From the NCBI RefSeq assembly GCF_016735685.1, contig NZ_JAERRA010000002.1:496001-560000 (forward strand): a stretch of DNA of 64,000 nt, in the 5' to 3' direction. This DNA comes from Piscinibacter lacus. GTDB lineage: Bacteria; Pseudomonadota; Gammaproteobacteria; Burkholderiales; Burkholderiaceae_C. Shown one piece after another: positions 34,771-42,875 of this stretch. The notes beneath the pieces were generated by a model. That model was not told where the DNA came from, did no database searches, and saw nothing but the letters and a program-made list of their open reading frames with translations. Each line of letters begins with the position of its first letter. Position 1 is the first letter of the stretch. Both the position numbers and the translations under genes were made by a program.

Positions 34771-35268
34771 TCAGGCGGCGCCGAGGCGTCGGGCCTGCAA
34801 GGCGGCCCCGGTCCAGGCCGCGCCGATCAGCAGCGGCAGCAAAACCGTGCTGGCCGCATGGGCCTCGGCGGCGGCCTCGATCAGGCCGGCGGCGATCCAG
34901 GGATCGAGCCCCGCCGGCAGCCCGCCCTCGCGCCAGCCGCCGGGCGCCAGGGCCGCGCCGCTGCCGGCCAGCAGCAGGGTGTCGAGCAGGGCCAGGCCGG
35001 CCAGGCCGCGCGGCCCGCCGCGCAGGCGCAGCAGGGCCGCAGCCAGGCCCAGCAGCAGGGCCAGCGCCAGGCCGGTGCCGAGAGCGGCATGCCAGGGCCC
35101 GAGCGGCAGGGCCTGCGGCCACCACGCGGGCGCGGCCCAGGCGCCGGGCCAGGCCGGCAGGCCCTCGTCGAGCAGGACCCCGAGTCCGGCGACCCCGGCC
35201 GCGAGCAGGCCGCCCAGCAGCAGCAGCCCGCCCACCCAGGCGCAGCGCGGCGATGGCAGCGCGGCCAT
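34771..35268 (-). CDS. small polytopic membrane protein of unknown function
   Basis: This 165-residue protein is built almost wholly of Leu/Ala/Gly-rich hydrophobic segments. About four helices are visible near 10-32, 58-82, 88-105 and 140-160. No family was recognised. Its ATG overlaps the stop of the PepSY gene (TGATG at 35268), so the two are translationally coupled and probably share the promoter upstream of the PepSY gene. Confidence 0.6.
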   Translation of the reverse strand: MAALPSPRCAWVGGLLLLGGLLAAGVAGLGVLLDEGLPAWPGAWAAPAWWPQALPLGPWHAALGTGLALALLLGLAAALLRLRGGPRGLAGLALLDTLLLAGSGAALAPGGWREGGLPAGLDPWIAAGLIEAAAEAHAASTVLLPLLIGAAWTGAALQARRLGAA

Positions 35269-35549
35269 CAGTGGGCCCAGCCCTTGCGCTCCAGGGTTTG
35301 CGGGTGGAAGTAGGCCTCGTGGTAGCGGCCCTCCTTGTCGACACCCTTGACCTCGTAGCAGCCGTCGTCGATCTCGATCTTGCGCAGGCGCCAGCCCTCG
35401 GCGCTCAGCTTCTGGACCAGCTCGGCCAGCGGCTTCCAGCCGGTTTCGGGGCCGGCTTGGCAGCGGTCGCCGCTGGCGAAAGCGGGGGCGGCTAGGCCCA
35501 GGGTGGCGGCCAGGGCAAGGGCCTTCAAGCGGGGCAGGCGAGGGAACAT
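35268..35549 (-). CDS. exported PepSY-domain protein
   Basis: This 93-residue protein has a Sec signal (KALALAATLGLAAPAFA) followed by one PepSY-like domain. The domain reads LAELVQKLSAEGWRLRKIEIDDGCYEVKGVDKEGRYHEAYFHPQTLE. Two cysteines in the mature part may form a disulfide. Small exported PepSY proteins are often divergent from, and controlled by, OmpR-type two-component systems, which is the arrangement here. ATG 35549 has GGAG upstream. Confidence 0.85.
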   Translation of the reverse strand: MFPRLPRLKALALAATLGLAAPAFASGDRCQAGPETGWKPLAELVQKLSAEGWRLRKIEIDDGCYEVKGVDKEGRYHEAYFHPQTLERKGWAH

Positions 35550-35647
35550 GGTGAACTCCTTCAAGGGGGGGTTAAGAGGGCTTCGGGGCGGGCGGGCCAT
35601 CTGGCCCCCGGCGCTTCGAGGCATGGACCGCATGGTCGGCTGCGGAC

Positions 35648-35664
35648 TTGAACCCGACCTGAAC
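35648..35664 (-). promoter_or_regulatory. tandem response-regulator half-sites facing the PepSY gene
   Basis: On the minus strand GTTCAG (35664-35659) and GTTCAA (35653-35648) are phased by 11 bp. Ten bases later comes GACCAT (35637-35632), a possible -10 box. This is the geometry of PmrA/PhoP/QseB-type promoters. Confidence 0.6.
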
Positions 35665-35678
35665 GGCGCCGGCCTGCG

Positions 35679-35695
35679 GTTCAGAATCGGTTCAG
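35679..35695 (+). promoter_or_regulatory. tandem response-regulator half-sites facing the two-component genes
   Basis: GTTCAG at 35679-35684 and at 35690-35695 are phased by 11 bp. A weak -10 candidate CACCCT (35706-35711) follows 10 bp later. It implies autoregulation of the system. Confidence 0.6.
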
Positions 35696-35747
35696 TCCCG
35701 ACCGGCACCCTCACCCGCCCTGCCCCGCGTCTCCGCGCACCCACCCC

Positions 35748-36419
35748 ATGCACCTGCTGCTGCTCGAAGACGACATCGACCTCGGCCAGGCCGTGCTCGA
35801 CCACCTCGAAGCCGCCGGCCATGCCGTGCAGTGGATGAAGCTGATCGCCCAGGCCGAGGCCCGGCTGGCTGGCGAGGCGGCGATCGAGCTGGCCCTCTTC
35901 GACCTGCAACTGCCCGACGGCGATGCGACCGAGCTGCTGCGCCGCCGCCGTGCGGCCGGCGACCGCCGGCCGGTCATCGTGCTCACCGCGCGCGACCAGA
36001 TCAGCGACCGCATCCGCGGTTTGCAGGCCGGCGCCGACGACTACCTGGTCAAGCCCTTCGACCTCGACGAGCTGCTGGCCCGCATCGAGGCTGTGGCCCG
36101 GCGCAGCGGCAGCGTCGCGCCGCCGACACTGCAGGCCGATGCGCTGAAGCTGGACTTCGCCGCCGGCCGGGCCTGGCGCGGCGGCGAGGAGGTGCTGCTG
36201 ACTGCCATGGAATGGGCCCTGCTCGCTCGCCTGGCGAGCCGGCCCGGCCAGCTCTGGAGCCGCAGCGCGCTGGAACAGGCCGTCTACACCCAGGCCGGGC
36301 GCGGCGAGGCCGACAGCAACTCGGTGGAGGTGCTGATCAGCCGCCTGCGCCGCAAGCTCGGCGCCGAGACCATCCGCACCCAGCGCGGCCTGGGTTACCG
36401 CTTCGAGGCCGGCGCATGA
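35748..36419 (+). CDS. OmpR-family response regulator (QseB/PmrA type)
   Basis: This 223-residue two-domain regulator has a receiver with acidic pocket EDD at 7-9, phospho-acceptor D52 in FDLQLPDG, T80 and K102 (YLVKPFDLDELL). The C-terminal winged helix ends [16 protein letters not shown]. It is divergent from the PepSY gene over a 198-bp region with paired half-sites. The kinase gene overlaps its stop by 4 bp (ATGA). Confidence 0.94.
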   Translation: MHLLLLEDDIDLGQAVLDHLEAAGHAVQWMKLIAQAEARLAGEAAIELALFDLQLPDGDATELLRRRRAAGDRRPVIVLTARDQISDRIRGLQAGADDYLVKPFDLDELLARIEAVARRSGSVAPPTLQADALKLDFAAGRAWRGGEEVLLTAMEWALLARLASRPGQLWSRSALEQAVYTQAGRGEADSNSVEVLISRLRRKLGAETIRTQRGLGYRFEAGA

Positions 36420-37870
36420 GCAGGCCCGATGCCGCGCCGCCCTCCCCCGGCCCGGCGCGCCCCTGGCGGCTGGAGCAACGCCTGCGCCGCCGCTTGCTGG
36501 GCGGCCTCGCCGCCGCTTGGCTGCTGGCCGCGGCGCTGGCGGGCGGCGGCGCGGCCCATGAGCTGCACAAGCTGCGCGACGAGGCGCTGGAAGACCAGGC
36601 GCGCCGCCTGCTCAGCCTACCCCTGGCCTGGGACCGCCCCGCGCCGCGGGTCGAGGACGACCAGGAGGGCGAGATCGCCCTGCAGCTTTTCGACCCGCAG
36701 GGGCGGATGCTGTGGCGCTCCGAGGAAGCCCCGGCCGCCGCGCTGGCCGCGCTGGACCGGCGCGGCCAGCGCTGGGCGGGGCGCTGGCGGGTGCATGTGG
36801 AGGTGGAGCGCCGGGGCGGCCGGGTGGCGGTGGCGGCGGAGCCCCTGGAGGAAAGGGCGCAGGCCATCCTCCCCGCCCTGGTCTGGCTGCTGGCGCCCCT
36901 GCTGGCCCTGCTGCCCCTGCTGGCCTGGGGCCTGCACCGCAGCCTGCGCCAGGGCTTTGCCAGCCTCGCCCCGGCACGCGCCGCGCTGGCCCGGCGTGAC
37001 GGCCATGACCTCTCGCCGCTCGCCAGCGACCCGGCCCTGCGCGGGCCCGACGGTGCGTCCACCCTGCCGCAGGAGCTGGCGCCCCTGGTCGAGGCGGTGG
37101 ACGCGCTGCTCGGGCGGCTCGGCCGCCTGCTCGGCGCCGAGCGCCAGTTCGCCGCCGCCAGCGCGCACGAGCTGCGCACCCCGCTGGCCGCCGCCCAGGC
37201 CCAGCTCAAGCGCCTGCAAGTTGAGCTGGCAGACGCGCTGCCGGCCGGCCATGCCAGCCAGGCCCGCGCCGCCACGCTGGCGCGGCAGCTTCAGCGCCTG
37301 GGCGAGCTGGGCGCCAAGCTGCTGCAGCTTGCGCGGGTGGATGCCGGCGTCGGCCTGGCGCGCGAGCCGGTGGCGCTCGACGAGCTGGCCCTGCTGGTGC
37401 TGGACGAATTCATGCAGGCCGGCCTGCTGCCGGCCGGCTCGGCGGACGAAGCCGCGGATGCCCCCGCCGCCCCGCCCGGCTGGACGCTGGCGCTGCAGCC
37501 GCTGACGGTGCACGGCGACCTGGATGCCCTGGGCATCGCGCTGCGCAACCTGATCGAGAACAGCCTGCGCCACGGCGGGCCGGGCGTCGCGCGGCGGCTC
37601 AGCGTGCAGCGGCAGGACGGCCAGGTCGCGCTGGTCCTGGAGGACGAGGGCCCGGGCGTGCCGGGCGAGATGCTGGCGCGCCTGCGCCGCCCCTTCGAGC
37701 GCGCCGACCGGCAGGCCGAAGGCAGCGGCCTGGGCCTGGCCATCGTCGAGGCGGTGGCGCGGCAGTCGGGCGGCGAGCTCCTGCTGGCCTCGCCGCTGGC
37801 ACCGGGCCGGCCGGGCTTTCGCGCGACGCTGCGGCTGCCGGCGGGAGCCTCCGCCGCTCAGACCTTGTAG
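36416..37870 (+). CDS. sensor histidine kinase (QseC/PmrB type)
   Basis: This 484-residue inner-membrane kinase has TM1 about 28-50 ([20 protein letters not shown]), a periplasmic loop of about 100 residues and TM2 about 150-172 ([20 protein letters not shown]). A HAMP-like linker precedes the DHp helix with phospho-acceptor H251 ([10 protein letters not shown]). The ATPase domain has N-box [11 protein letters not shown]1 EDEGPGVP and G2 GSGLGLAIV. It is coupled to the regulator by an ATGA overlap. Its 3' end overlaps the convergent epimerase gene by 13 bp. The signal is unknown. Confidence 0.93.
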
Positions 37871-38880
37871 AAGCCGCGGTACCAGTCGACGAAGCGCTGC
37901 ACGCCCTCGCGCAGCGGGGTGGCCGGCGCATAGCCGACGTCGGCCTGCAGGCCGCGGGTGTCGGCCGCGGTGTCGGGCACGTCGCCGGGCTGCATGGGGG
38001 CCAGCTCGCGGATCGCCGGCTTGCCGATGGCGGCCTCCAGGGCATCGATGAAATCGACCAGGGCGACCGGCGCGCTCGCGCCCAGGTTGTAGACCCGCCA
38101 GGGCGCATTGCTGCGGGCCGGATCGGGGGCGGCGCTGTTCCAGGCCGGGTCGGGCGCGGCGGGCTGGTCGCTGGCGCGCAGCAGGCCTTCGACGATGTCC
38201 TCGACGAAGGTGAAGTCGCGGCTGTGGCGGCCGTGGTTGAAAAGCTGGATCGGCCGGCCTTCCAGGATCGCGCGGGTGAAGAGGAAAGGCGCCATGTCCG
38301 GCCGGCCCCAGGGGCCGTAGACGGTGAAGAAGCGCAGGCCGGTGGTCGGCAGCCGGTAGAGGTGGCTGTAGGCATGGGCCATCAGCTCGTTGGCGCGCTT
38401 GGTGGCGGCGTAGAACTGCAGCGGATGGTCGGCGGCGACATGCTCGCTGGAAGGCAGCGCGGTGCTGGCGCCGTAGACCGAGCTGGTCGAGGCATAGCTG
38501 AGGTGGCCCACCCCGTGGTGGCGGCAGGCCTCCAGCAGGTTCACGAAGCCGCTGATGTTGCTTTCCACATAGGCGCGCGGGTTCTGCAGCGAATAGCGCA
38601 CGCCGGCCTGGGCGGCCAGGTTGATCACCCGCTCGATGCGGTGCTGGGCGAAGACGGCATCCACCGCCGCCGCATCGGCCAGGTTGGCGCGCACATCGCG
38701 GTAGAAGCCGCCGCTGCGATCCGCCACGGCCTGCAGCGCGACCAGGCGGGCCTGCTTGAGTGCGGGGTCGTAGTAGTCGTTCAGGTTGTCCAAGCCGATC
38801 ACGCCCTCGCCGCGTTCGAGCAGGCGGCAGGCGGTGTGGAAGCCGATGAAGCCGGCATGGCCGGTGACGAGGTGCAGCAT
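37858..38880 (-). CDS. NAD-dependent UDP-glucuronate 4-epimerase-like SDR
   Basis: This 340-residue extended SDR has GxxGxxG at 7-13 (GHAGFIG), [17 protein letters not shown], catalytic STSSVYG and YAATKRANE, and [23 protein letters not shown]. These features are typical of UDP-GlcA/UDP-GalA 4-epimerases (CapI/WbnF group). It would supply UDP-galacturonate in the cytoplasm. An insertion with a near-repeat ([17 protein letters not shown]) lies near residue 255. It heads toward the two-component genes and is upstream of no close partner; the flippase-like gene is 151 bp away on the same strand. Confidence 0.88.
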
Positions 38881-39031: not shown

Positions 39032-40138
39032 TCAAGCCGCGGGCTGCGCCCCGGCCGGCCGCTGGCGGCGCTCGGCGGCCAGCACCGCCGCGCCGGGCAG
39101 GGCCTGGGCCAGGGCCGCCAGGCCGTAGAGCAGGCCGATGCCCAGGGCCAGCGGCGCGGGCACGCCGAAGGCACCCAGGGCCAGCACGGCTGCGGCCTCG
39201 CGGCTGCCCCAGCCGCCAAAGCTGATCGGCAGGGTGGACATCAGGAAGATCGGCAGCGCGACCAGGGCCCAGGTCCAGGCCGGCAGGGTCACGCCCAGGG
39301 CCAGGCCGGCGCAGGCCAGGGTGCCGACCGAGAAGAGCTGCACCCCCAGCGAAGCCAGCAGTTGCAGGGCGAGCTGGCCGCGGGCGCCCGGCCGCCGGGC
39401 CAGGGCGCGCAGGGCCTGGGCGCGCGAGGGCAGCGCGGGCGGGGCCGCCTCGGGGCCGTCCGATGCGGGCGAAGCCGGACCGGCGGAGCCGGCGGCCGGA
39501 GACCGGGCGGTCAGGGCCAGCGGGGCCAGGGTGCAGGCCAGGACCAGGCCGGCGCAGGCCGCTGCCAAGCCGGCCGCCGGCAGGGCGCGCAGGGCCGCCT
39601 GCGGGCCGGTCGGCAGCAGCGCCGCCAGGGGGTCGAGCAAGGCCGCGGGCTCGGCGCCCAGCAGGGCCAGGGCGGCTCCGGCCAGGGCCAGCACGCCGAG
39701 CATCCACAGGCCGGCCCCTCGGTCGACCAGCACCGAGAGCCCGGCCGCGGCCCAGCCCAGGCCGTGGGCTCGCAGGGCCTGGGCGCGGTAGAGGTCGCCA
39801 CCCACCACGGCACCCGGCAGCAGCGCATTCAGCGCGATGCCGCCGGCATAGCGGGCCACCGCCCAGCCCGGTGTGACGCAGGCGCCGAGCCAGCGCGCCA
39901 AGGCCCACCAGCGCAAGGCCGACAGCAGATTGGCCAGCACCGCGCTGCCCAGGCCCAGCAGCAGCCAAGCCGGATCGGCGCCGGCCAGGCTGCGCCGCAG
40001 GGCGGCCGTGTCGACCAGGGCCAGCAGGCCCGCCAACACGCACAGCCCCAGGGCCAGGCGCAAGAGGACGGGGCCCTTGCGGCGGGTCGACGCACCGGCC
40101 GACCGTCCGGGCGGCAAGGCGGGCGCGGCCCCGCTCAC
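39032..40138 (-). CDS. lysylphosphatidylglycerol-synthase-TM/UPF0104 family membrane protein (flippase-like)
   Basis: This 368-residue polytopic protein carries the UPF0104 core: RWWALARWLG, YAGGIALNALLPGAVVGGDLYRA, LVDRGAGLWML and LPISFGGWGSREAA. Such proteins accompany lipid-linked glycosyltransferases and are proposed lipid transporters. An Ala/Pro-rich cytoplasmic loop lies around 205-235. The start is GTG 40138, overlapping the GT2 stop (GTGA), so it is translationally coupled to it; no ATG is suitable. Confidence 0.85.
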   Translation of the reverse strand: MSGAAPALPPGRSAGASTRRKGPVLLRLALGLCVLAGLLALVDTAALRRSLAGADPAWLLLGLGSAVLANLLSALRWWALARWLGACVTPGWAVARYAGGIALNALLPGAVVGGDLYRAQALRAHGLGWAAAGLSVLVDRGAGLWMLGVLALAGAALALLGAEPAALLDPLAALLPTGPQAALRALPAAGLAAACAGLVLACTLAPLALTARSPAAGSAGPASPASDGPEAAPPALPSRAQALRALARRPGARGQLALQLLASLGVQLFSVGTLACAGLALGVTLPAWTWALVALPIFLMSTLPISFGGWGSREAAAVLALGAFGVPAPLALGIGLLYGLAALAQALPGAAVLAAERRQRPAGAQPAA

Positions 40139-41175
40139 GCCCGCCGGGCCGCGCCGTCCATCCGCACATGGGCCTGCGGACGCCCGCCGGCCTCGTGGTA
40201 AATGCGGGTCAGCATCTCGCCGACCAGGCCGGCGACGATGAGCTGCACGCCGATCAGGCTGAGCAGCATGCCGGTCATCAGCAGCGGCCGGCCGCCGATG
40301 TCCTGCCCCAGCAGCTTGAGCACGCCCAGGTGGCCGAGCATGCCCAGGCCGGGCGTCAGCAGCCACAGGCCGAGGCCGCCGAAGGCATACAACGGCCGCT
40401 GGCGGTAGCGCATGAAGAAGACGATCAGCACCAGGTCGAGGATGACGCGGAAGGTGCGGTCGATGCCGTACTTGCTGACGCCGCGGGTGCGCGCATGGTG
40501 GCGCACCGGCACCTCGGCGATGCGCGCGCCGGCGTCCTTGGCGAGCGAGGGAATGAAGCGGTGCAGCTCGCCGTAGAGCCGGATGCGGTCGATGATTTCG
40601 CGCCGGTAGGCCTTGAGCGCGCAGCCGTAGTCGTGCAGGTGCACGCCGGTGGCGCGCGAGATCAGCGCATTGGCGATGCGGCTGGGCAGCTTGCGCGAGA
40701 TCTCGGCGTCCTGCCGGTTACGGCGCCAGCCGGAGATCATGTCGACGCTGTCGTCGGCGTCCAGGCGGTCGAGCATCGCCGGGATGTCGAGCGGGTCGTT
40801 CTGCAGGTCGCCGTCGAGCGTGACCACATAGCGGCCGCGCACGCGGTCGAAGCCGGCCTGCAGGGCGCTGCTCTGGCCGTAGTTGCGCGCCAGCACCACC
40901 GGCACCAGCCAGGGCCGGCGGGCGGCTTCCTCGCGCAGCAGGGCGGCGCTGGCGTCGCGCGAGCCGTCGTCGACCAGGATCAGCTCGAAGCGGCGACCGG
41001 TCGGGGCCAGGGCCTCGCCGACGCGGCGGATCAGCTCGGGCAGGTTCTCGGCCTCGTTGTAGACGGGGATGACGATCGACACCTCGGGCGCGGCGGCCTC
41101 CGCCGACGCAGGCACAGCCACCTCGGCCAGGGGCAGCGGCTCGGAAGCGAAGACGAAATGGGTGAAGGCGTTCAT
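40135..41175 (-). CDS. GT2 polyprenyl-phosphate glycosyltransferase (ArnC/DPM1-like)
   Basis: This 346-residue transferase has a GT-A domain: VSIVIPVYNEAENLPELI, LILVDDGSRDAS and LDGDLQNDP. It is followed by LHDYGCALKAYRREI and RGVSKYG, then two C-terminal membrane helices (about 265-320). It would load a nucleotide sugar onto undecaprenyl phosphate at the inner membrane. ATG 41175 gives MNAFTHF. It is divergent from the GT39 gene over 155 bp with paired half-sites, and the flippase-like gene is coupled downstream. Confidence 0.92.
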   Translation of the reverse strand: MNAFTHFVFASEPLPLAEVAVPASAEAAAPEVSIVIPVYNEAENLPELIRRVGEALAPTGRRFELILVDDGSRDASAALLREEAARRPWLVPVVLARNYGQSSALQAGFDRVRGRYVVTLDGDLQNDPLDIPAMLDRLDADDSVDMISGWRRNRQDAEISRKLPSRIANALISRATGVHLHDYGCALKAYRREIIDRIRLYGELHRFIPSLAKDAGARIAEVPVRHHARTRGVSKYGIDRTFRVILDLVLIVFFMRYRQRPLYAFGGLGLWLLTPGLGMLGHLGVLKLLGQDIGGRPLLMTGMLLSLIGVQLIVAGLVGEMLTRIYHEAGGRPQAHVRMDGAARRA

Positions 41176-41231
41176 CGTCGGACGGGACAAGGCGCGGTGG
41201 ACCGGCCGGCGACCTAGTGTTCGGGCCGTCG

Positions 41232-41248
41232 ATGAAGCGAACATGAAG
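41232..41248 (-). promoter_or_regulatory. PmrA-box-like tandem half-sites facing the GT2 operon
   Basis: On the minus strand CTTCAT (41248-41243) and CTTCAT (41237-41232) are phased by 11 bp. Ten bases later comes AACACT (41221-41216) as a -10 candidate, with the GT2 start at 41175. Confidence 0.6.
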
Positions 41249-41289
41249 AAAGGGCGACGCTGTCGCGAGGCCACCTCGACCGGGCTGGC

Positions 41290-41306
41290 CTTCATGCCCG
41301 CTTCAT
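41290..41306 (+). promoter_or_regulatory. PmrA-box-like tandem half-sites facing the GT39 gene
   Basis: CTTCAT at 41290-41295 and 41301-41306 are phased by 11 bp, and CATAAG (41317-41322) follows at 10 bp. The predicted transcript would have almost no leader before ATG 41331. Confidence 0.6.
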
Positions 41307-41330
41307 CCAGCTCCGGCATAAGCCGGGCCG

Positions 41331-42875
41331 ATGCACGCCCCTGCCTCCTCCCATGACCCGACGGCTGCGCGCCAGGCCTGGGCCCTGGCCCTGGGCCTGG
41401 CCCTGCTGTACTTCGGCGCGCAGGTGCTGACCCGCCTGGCCGCCTCGCCCGCGCTGGAGCTGGACGAAGCCGAGCAGGCGCTGTGGACCCAGTCCTGGGC
41501 CTGGGGCCACGGCCCGCAGCCGCCGCTCTACACCTGGCTGCAGCAGCTCGTCTTCCTGTTGACCGGCCCCTCGCTGCTGGGCCTGAGCCTGCTCAAGAAC
41601 CTGCTGCTGGCCACCACCTACCTGGCGCTGTGGCGGGCCGGGCTGAAGCTGATGCCGGCGCCGCTGGCCGCCACGACGGCGCTGATGCCGCTGCTGATGC
41701 TGCAGATCGGCTGGGAATCGCAGCGCGACCTGACCCACTCGGTGCTGGTCACCACCGTGGCGGCACTGACGGTGCTGGCCAGCCTGCGCCTGCTGGAGGC
41801 GCCGCAGCGCCTGGGCCGCTGGGCGCTGCTGGGCCTGCTGGTCGGCGCGGGCCTGCTGTCCAAGTACAGCTATGCCGGTTTCGCGCTGGCCTGGTTTGCG
41901 GCGCTGGCCTGGCTGCCGGCGGGCCGCGCCGCCCTGCGCCAGTGGGGGGCCTGGGCTGGTCTGCTGCTGGCTGCCGGCCTGGCCGGCGCACTGCTGGCGC
42001 CGCACGGCCTGTGGCTGCTGGACCATGGCGAGGCGGCCCGCGCCCATGCCGCCGGCAAGCTGGCCGGCGCGGCGGCGCCGGATGCGCTTGCCCGGCTGCT
42101 GGGCATGGGCCGCGGCCTGCTCGGCGCGCTGCTCGCGGCCGTGGCAGGGCTGATGCCGCTGGGCCTGGTGCTGCTGCTGGTGCTGGGCCCGCGCGGCCTG
42201 CGCAGCGCTTGGCAGGCGCCGGTGGCCGAGGCCACCGCCCGCAGCCAGCGCGCCCTGGCGCGCGCGCTCGGCGGCCTCTACCTGCTGACGATGGCCCTGT
42301 TCTTCGCGGCCCTGGTGATCCTGGGCGGCGCGACGCAGTTCAAGGAACGCTGGCTGATGCCCTTCCTGCTGCCGCTGCCGCTGCTCTTCTTCGCTTCGCT
42401 GCCTGCCCTGCAAGGCCATCCCCGGCGGCGCTGGCTGCACCGCCTGGCGGCGCTGGCCGCCGTGATCTGGCTGGCCGGCATCGGCCTGCGCACCTGGGTG
42501 GCCGGCGAACGCAACCGCCCGGACGAGCTGAACGAGCCGCTGGCCGCCCTGGTGCAGGGCCTGCACGCAGCGGGCGCGGTGCCGGCCGGGCCCTTCACCG
42601 TGATCAGCAGCGACCGCGTGCTGGCCGGCGGCCTGCGCCTGGCGCTGCCGCAGGCGCGGGTCGAAGTGCGGCGACCGGACGAGCCGCCGGCTGCGCTGCC
42701 GGCCGGGCCGTTGCTCTGGGTCGGGCGCGGGGCGGATGTGAAAGCGGCCTCGGCCGCCCTGCCCCAGGGCCTGCCGCCCCGGCAGCACTGGACCCTGCCC
42801 GTGCATCCGCGCGGGCCGGGCCGGGTCAGCTACGCCGCCGCCTGGCGCGATGCTGGAGCAGGCCCAGGGCCGTGA
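41331..42875 (+). CDS. GT39-family membrane glycosyltransferase (ArnT/RgtA-like)
   Basis: This 514-residue protein has about ten membrane helices in the first 420 residues and an exported C-terminal part. The first periplasmic loop has the acidic motif [11 protein letters not shown] and PQPPLYTWLQQ, as in PMT_2 transferases that move sugars from polyprenyl phosphate onto lipid A or LPS core. It is divergent from the GT2-flippase pair. Its last 50 bp overlap the convergent gene at 42826. Confidence 0.88.
   Translation: MHAPASSHDPTAARQAWALALGLALLYFGAQVLTRLAASPALELDEAEQALWTQSWAWGHGPQPPLYTWLQQLVFLLTGPSLLGLSLLKNLLLATTYLALWRAGLKLMPAPLAATTALMPLLMLQIGWESQRDLTHSVLVTTVAALTVLASLRLLEAPQRLGRWALLGLLVGAGLLSKYSYAGFALAWFAALAWLPAGRAALRQWGAWAGLLLAAGLAGALLAPHGLWLLDHGEAARAHAAGKLAGAAAPDALARLLGMGRGLLGALLAAVAGLMPLGLVLLLVLGPRGLRSAWQAPVAEATARSQRALARALGGLYLLTMALFFAALVILGGATQFKERWLMPFLLPLPLLFFASLPALQGHPRRRWLHRLAALAAVIWLAGIGLRTWVAGERNRPDELNEPLAALVQGLHAAGAVPAGPFTVISSDRVLAGGLRLALPQARVEVRRPDEPPAALPAGPLLWVGRGADVKAASAALPQGLPPRQHWTLPVHPRGPGRVSYAAAWRDAGAGPGP

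Follow-up and report, generated by a model that had tools for sequence, protein, structure and literature searches.

The short gap between two divergently transcribed glycosyltransferase genes of Piscinibacter lacus raises the question of whether both answer to one activator and, if so, to which. In the 64,000-nucleotide stretch of DNA that we analysed (the window), the gap spans 155 bp between a GT2 gene starting at 41175 (40135..41175, minus strand; best NCBIfam match ArnC, below cut-off) and a GT39-type transferase gene starting at 41331 (41331..42875, plus strand; Pfam PMT_2). The genes of the region lie in the following order: a PepSY_2 gene (35268..35549, minus strand), divergent from the regulator gene; a PmrA-like OmpR-family response regulator (35748..36419, plus strand), about 5 kb from the GT2/GT39 gap, and a PmrB-like histidine kinase (36416..37870, plus strand); an NAD-dependent nucleotide-sugar epimerase, assigned from profile matches and relatives (37858..38880, minus strand); a flippase-like protein (39032..40366, minus strand; LPG_synthase_TM); GT2; the gap; and GT39.

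For GT39 we found no NCBIfam match and, by sequence, no relative in the PDB (best E 0.75); its putative ArnT-like nature is read from Pfam PMT_2. A scan of named genomes with GT39 returned two GT39 loci in Methyloversatilis at 44-46% identity. The company of an ArnC-like GT2, a flippase-like protein, a PMT_2 transferase and an epimerase suggests that a lipid-linked sugar is moved onto an envelope acceptor. Our guess, from the relatives of the epimerase and by comparison with the ArnC/ArnT and Rgt systems, would be a uronic acid attached to lipid A or to the core.

Mirrored direct repeats in the GT2/GT39 gap

A preliminary description of this DNA had placed CTTCAT-N5-CTTCAT on both strands of the gap, each copy pointing at its own gene and lying 10 bp from a -10 candidate, and this was confirmed. 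The box facing GT2, CTTCAT-GTTCG-CTTCAT (41232..41248, minus strand), is followed at exactly 10 bp by AACACT (41216..41221, minus strand), while the box facing GT39, CTTCAT-GCCCG-CTTCAT (41290..41306, plus strand), is followed at exactly 10 bp by CATAAG (41317..41322, plus strand), 8 nt before the GT39 ATG. The two hexamers alone are weak, agreeing with TATAAT at three (AACACT) and four (CATAAG) of six positions; it is their position that is the conserved one.

The exact pair occurs twice in the 3,027,633-base (3.03 Mb) genome, both times within this gap and in mirrored orientation; the frequency of the hexamer in the window predicts about 0.6 exact pairs for the whole genome, the reversed control had no match in the 3.03 Mb, and 6.4 Mb of Markov sequence contained none. 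In a motif-blind test, which accepted any hexamer-N5-hexamer with a mirror copy within 150 bp, the GT2/GT39 pair was the single one in the window, and some such pair was present in 1 of 100 Markov windows.

The two 18-bp arms of the gap are identical at 16 of 18 positions (GATGAAGCGRRCATGAAG), and therefore the spacers are partly common too. Such agreement between the arms is what one symmetrical operator or a hairpin, acting in repression or with another factor, would also produce in place of two activator sites. We think this improbable: divergent activator boxes are necessarily mirrored, each arm has a -10 candidate of its own at the 10 bp that is usual in the family (see below), and boxes of the same kind before the eptA genes of relatives can be one-sided, not mirrored.

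The same layout upstream of regulator and eptA genes in relatives

As a family-wide motif CTTCAT proved uninformative, with an exact match in 32 of 150 genomes and a modest excess over the reversed control; the informative core is TTCA-N7-TTCA plus the -10. We collected 54 upstream regions from relatives, 29 of regulators (260 bp) and 25 of eptA (420 bp), in which TTCA-N7-TTCA occurs 31 times, compared with a mean of 0.21 and a maximum of 2 after shuffling. Since some gaps had been fetched from both sides, the 31 occurrences correspond to 26 distinct sites, and these are not independent of one another, as they come from related genomes and share descent. Spacings of N4-N6, N8-N10 and N12 had no occurrence in the 54 upstreams, and N11 had one. 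A hexamer of the form xAxxxT stands exactly 10 bp downstream in 20 of the 26 distinct sites, and no other offset between 4 and 13 has it in more than 3; 10 bp is the position that both -10 candidates of the gap occupy, CATAAG fitting the A of the pattern and not the T. The PmrA/PhoP-type layout proposed earlier (direct repeat, 11-bp phase, 10 bp to the -10) is thus supported by the regulator and eptA promoters of relatives.

A matrix was built on 22 of the relatives' sites, leaving out the genus itself, and scored at about 128,000 positions on both strands of the window. The boxes of the regulator and PepSY genes took the first two ranks (24.1 and 19.1), the GT2 box the third (18.7) and the GT39 box the fourth (15.4), the next score being 13.0. 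When the -10 was added to the matrix the four boxes stayed on top as a group, GT2 scoring 18.2 and GT39 12.5, the latter little above the background, where the next score was 10.6. We take this ranking as the main evidence, and it argues for real promoters of a PmrA-like class in the GT2/GT39 gap. The earlier proposal that both genes form one regulated module, linked to the neighbouring regulator, also gains support, in that a matrix from other genera picks exactly the GT boxes. Chance resemblance with no function is the reading to which we give the least credence, and we regard it as very improbable: orthologous gaps without the box, weak -10 candidates and a mirrored hexamer pair in 1 of 100 random windows would all accord with it, but it leaves ranks 3 and 4 under a genus-blind matrix, beside the two boxes of the regulator itself, to coincidence. 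Several further sites found with relaxed patterns fall within long ORFs and are probably due to chance.

The neighbouring two-component system and its own promoter

PmrA is the best NCBIfam match of the regulator at 35748-36419, at 183 bits and so below the equivalog cut-off of 330, and BasR/PmrA is its best relative of solved structure. The best match of the kinase at 36416-37870 is PmrB, at 107 bits, also short of the cut-off (314). The kinase has ExxE motifs after its first and before its second transmembrane segment (EALE at 56 and EPLE at 142; segments predicted at 27-45 and 151-169), of which the kinase of the congener, the only other species of the genus that we examined, retains only the first. 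Plasmids searched with the regulator gene yielded short matches only.

The gap between the PepSY and regulator genes has a mirrored layout like that of the GT gap, with half-sites of the GTTCAG type, each box 10 bp from an xAxxxT hexamer. The box facing the regulator gene, GTTCAG-AATCG-GTTCAG (35679..35695, plus strand; CACCCT at 35706-35711), is conserved in the congener; the box facing PepSY, GTTCAG-GTCGG-GTTCAA (35648..35664, minus strand; GACCAT at 35632-35637), corresponds there to GTTCAG-ATCCG-GTTCAA. A TTCA core is common to all four boxes of the window (GT2, GT39, regulator and PepSY), and the TTAA core is absent from them. Among the 10 OmpR-family genes of this genome and the 13 of the congener, we found the TTCA box only at the neighbouring regulator, at its orthologue and at a SALR-like regulator of the congener. 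Another OmpR-family regulator of this genome with a TTCA box was sought and none was found among the 10 besides the neighbour, TTCA-N7-TTCA being absent from the upstream stretch examined of the other nine. Because no other of the 10 is preceded by such a box, and that of the neighbour is mirrored alike, we hold the neighbour to be the most likely binder, while another regulator could take this role.

Given the boxes with their phasing and spacing, the fit of these to promoters from other genera and the regulator class that goes with such boxes, we infer that the GT2/GT39 gap probably contains two divergent, activator-dependent promoters of sigma-70 type with the PmrA/PhoP layout, whose regulator is most likely the one encoded at 35748-36419. 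This PmrA-like regulator, when phosphorylated, would bind head to tail to each of the direct repeats with 11-bp phasing (about -39 to -23), stand in for a good -35 element and recruit RNA polymerase to the weak -10 located 10 bp downstream. On one side GT2 would be activated, possibly as an operon with the flippase-like and epimerase genes that follow, and on the other GT39, whose mRNA would start at or beside its own ATG. The cell would then make the lipid-linked sugar, flip it and attach it to an acceptor in the envelope, which is probably lipid A or the LPS core.

The congener, orthologous gaps and eptA

No eptA match was found in the genome of the window; the congener has two, one of which is preceded by the box CTTCAG-GCGGG-CTTCAT, with GACCAT at 10 bp. 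The proposed activation by a PmrA-like regulator is further supported because this eptA gene bears CTTCAG-N5-CTTCAT with its -10 at 10 bp, and because the regulator and GT2 lie in one cluster in both species. It is weakened because the GT2/GT39 gap of the congener, which measures 60 bp, lacks TTCA-N7-TTCA, because a TTMA-N7-TTMA box is absent from the 600 bp upstream of all 11 other GT39 matches (in 8 of 149 other genomes), and because the GT boxes are C-led (see below). An alignment of orthologous regions had been put forward as a check in the preliminary description, with a lack of conservation counting against its reading, and in the orthologous gap the repeats were indeed not conserved.

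At the DNA level the two species are 88-90% identical up to window position 41092, 69% identical from 41409 to 42715 and 95% identical from 43485; the GT39 proteins are 54% identical, and the flanks are well conserved. Between 41092 and 43485, similarity to the congener ends within the gap and stays low over the length of GT39, a pattern resembling gene replacement. This break in identity at the gap and GT39 would mean that one of the two species underwent either replacement or rapid divergence of GT39 together with the shared promoter region.

Judged by coordinates, 11 of the 22 relatives having an eptA match keep it at most about 2 kb from the regulator match, in many cases divergently. A TTMA-N7-TTMA box on the coding strand, no more than 600 bp from the domain, accompanies 11 of the relatives' 25 eptA loci, that of the congener included, and is lacking at 14. 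The targets familiar for PmrA, lipid A genes of the eptA type, are boxed at those 11 loci; the present genome has no eptA match and offers as targets only the ArnC-like and PMT_2 enzymes. Promoters of PmrA type with a TTCA core have apparently been newly placed on a sugar-transfer module.

Regulator class and half-site letters

We surveyed 84 regulators (30 and 54 further ones), seeking the box within 260 bp upstream, and sorted them by their recognition helix, which reads ISRLRRKL in the regulator of the window. TTCA-N7-TTCA precedes 27 of the 34 regulators with an [IV]SRLR helix, and within the same 260 bp it precedes none of the 27 with IH[GQS]LR and none of the five with SNLR. All four SSLR/SALR regulators have the box, in every case as CTTCAG-N5-CTTCAG. 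The two IHNLR regulators lack the pure TTCA form and both have a mixed CTTAAG/CTTCA[TG] form, and of 12 regulators outside the class pattern three have a pure TTCA box, including one of seven with IHGVR. In 35 boxes from the upstreams of SRLR regulators themselves, the leading letter of the first half-site is G in 26, C in 5 and A in 4, and that of the second G in 26, A in 4, T in 4 and C in 1.

Both GT boxes are C-led in both half-sites, as is the eptA box of the congener, and the neighbour's own boxes are G-led. C-led half-sites on both sides are found in 0 of the 35 SRLR boxes and in 4 of 4 SSLR/SALR boxes, which would be expected if the GT promoters, while activated in the PmrA manner, were read by another OmpR-family regulator recognizing the C-led form, the neighbour reading only its own G-led boxes. 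The congener indeed owns a SALR-like regulator (SAIR in its helix) with a C-led box, and the two species share C-led sites of full layout ahead of a c-type cytochrome gene and of a PepSY_2/cytochrome b561 pair; some regulator of the window's genome therefore probably reads them. Yet this genome has no orthologue of the SALR-like regulator (the best match is 41% identical over the whole protein and 53% over the receiver part), no TTCA box lies upstream of the nine other OmpR-family genes of this genome, and single C-led half-sites do occur with SRLR regulators. We thus consider a second regulator possible but unlikely, and continue to prefer the neighbour as the activator of GT2 and GT39.

These C-led sites and some similar ones may be described as follows. 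CTTCAG-N5-CTTCAG, with a -10 at 10 bp, precedes a second PepSY_2 gene that is followed by cytochrome b561 in both species (G000:C1:1847195; G081:C1:785232). The c-type cytochrome-like gene with a full-layout C-led box (G000:C1:1720388; G081:C1:675985), whose Pfam match is below cut-off, is followed by an ORF that resembles, judged by eye, an FAD-dependent oxidoreductase. CTTCAC-N5-CTTCAG precedes a small lipoprotein-like gene in both species, with CACACT at 11 bp, not 10 (G000:C1:2234136; G081:C1:1165683). The SALR-like regulator with a C-led box that the congener has in addition (G081:C1, 1239-1985 of the locus, minus strand) is divergent from a gene that by eye is HlyD-like and of efflux type.

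The enteric PmrA boxes given in the excerpted text of PMC3973317 are CTTAAG-N5-XTTAAT, verified in Salmonella, and CTTAAT-N5-CCTAAG before pbgP of Klebsiella. Like the boxes described here they consist of two 6-bp half-sites arranged head to tail and 5 bp apart. They precede lipid A modification genes, as the boxes of relatives do at eptA; unlike the boxes described here they have a TTAA and not a TTCA core. The same text proposes His193 and His195 of Klebsiella PmrA as determinants of specificity and states that Arg201 of PhoB, equivalent to Asn196 of PmrA, bonds a guanine. At the places of His193, His195 and Asn196 our alignment has Leu, Ser and Arg in the regulator of the window. These helix residues may explain the TTCA core, class and descent being confounded in the survey. 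The preliminary description had regarded the half-site as the enteric PmrA CTTAAT with one change; the PmrA-like direct repeat bears this out, but the TTCA core does not, being tied to a class of regulators with a differing recognition helix. The PmrA-like reading, as far as sequences can tell, holds in layout and probably in function; it does not extend to strict membership, given the TTCA core, the helix residues and the PmrA and PmrB scores below cut-offs.

Relation to other two-component systems

In the open-access literature that we searched, none of the matches listed describes a TTCA-type PmrA box. BqsR of Pseudomonas aeruginosa is reported, in the excerpt of PMC4682146 used here, to recognize pentamers in the arrangement TTAAG-N6-TTAAG, one of which is used by RNA polymerase as well; our boxes share its 11-bp phase and have TTCAT, or TTCAG/TTCAA, where it has TTAAG. 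PepSY genes adjoin the two-component genes of BqsR, according to the part of PMC12714742 concerned, as one does in the window. That part also describes modules of the DbfQRS type, in which, as here, a small PepSY protein stands beside a regulator and a kinase, on opposite strands in some species; they differ in having other targets, and no box of the TTCA kind is described for them in it. In Xanthomonas the genes of RaxH-RaxR adjoin arnT, lpxE or eptA, and RaxH carries a pair of ExxE motifs positioned as in PmrB, and so does the kinase of the window (PMC8306577, in part). Unlike the present system, RaxH-RaxR is assigned in this portion of the source to the ColS-ColR lineage, and no binding site in an eptA promoter is described there.

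Predicted leaderless transcripts and a possible wider regulon

Each of the 11 boxed eptA loci has an in-frame ATG 6-8 nt past the -10 position; the next in-frame ATG or GTG is at least 75 nt from the -10 in nine of them, and in three an additional ATG overlaps the -10. The corresponding distance is 8 nt for GT39 (CATAAG), 7 and 8 nt for the boxed cytochrome genes and 6 nt for a phytase-like gene. The leaders predicted for regulator genes are 21-36 nt long (four loci), and that of GT2 would be about 34 nt. Placing transcription starts at the usual distance from the -10, we predict that the mRNAs of GT39 and of the boxed eptA genes are leaderless. Among the matches listed in our search of the open-access literature we found no description of leaderless mRNA in connection with a phosphoethanolamine transferase or PmrA. 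That every one of the 11 boxed eptA loci has its ATG at the predicted start raises a specific and testable question, namely why stress-induced envelope enzymes should have leaderless mRNAs.

We tentatively suggest, with somewhat less than even confidence, a family-wide PmrA-like regulon with a DNA code of its own, in which Ser-Arg at positions 195-196 would specify G-led TTCA, Ser-Ser or Ser-Ala the C-led form and His-Asn mixtures of TTAA and TTCA. Its envelope targets would be leaderless, with the ATG 6-8 nt past the -10, and in the present genome the box would stand on the GT2/GT39 module instead of the missing eptA, one envelope modification having been swapped for another under the same sensor. 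If this is true, the reach of PmrA-type surface control would include these betaproteobacteria, a single sensor would have come to govern sugar decoration in place of phosphoethanolamine, and the protein-DNA code could be tested in vitro by exchange of helix residues.

The whole pattern, TTCA-N7-TTCA-N12-A-N3-T-N6-8-ATG, has 106 matches in 76 of 250 genomes, compared with 6 for the reversed control; the 106 are a raw count that includes one match before the PepSY gene of the window, which is probably not a used start. An ATG at 35624-35622 (minus strand) lies 7 nt past the PepSY-facing -10 and in frame with PepSY, while the PepSY start at 35549 is preceded by AAGGAG and followed by a signal-peptide-like sequence.
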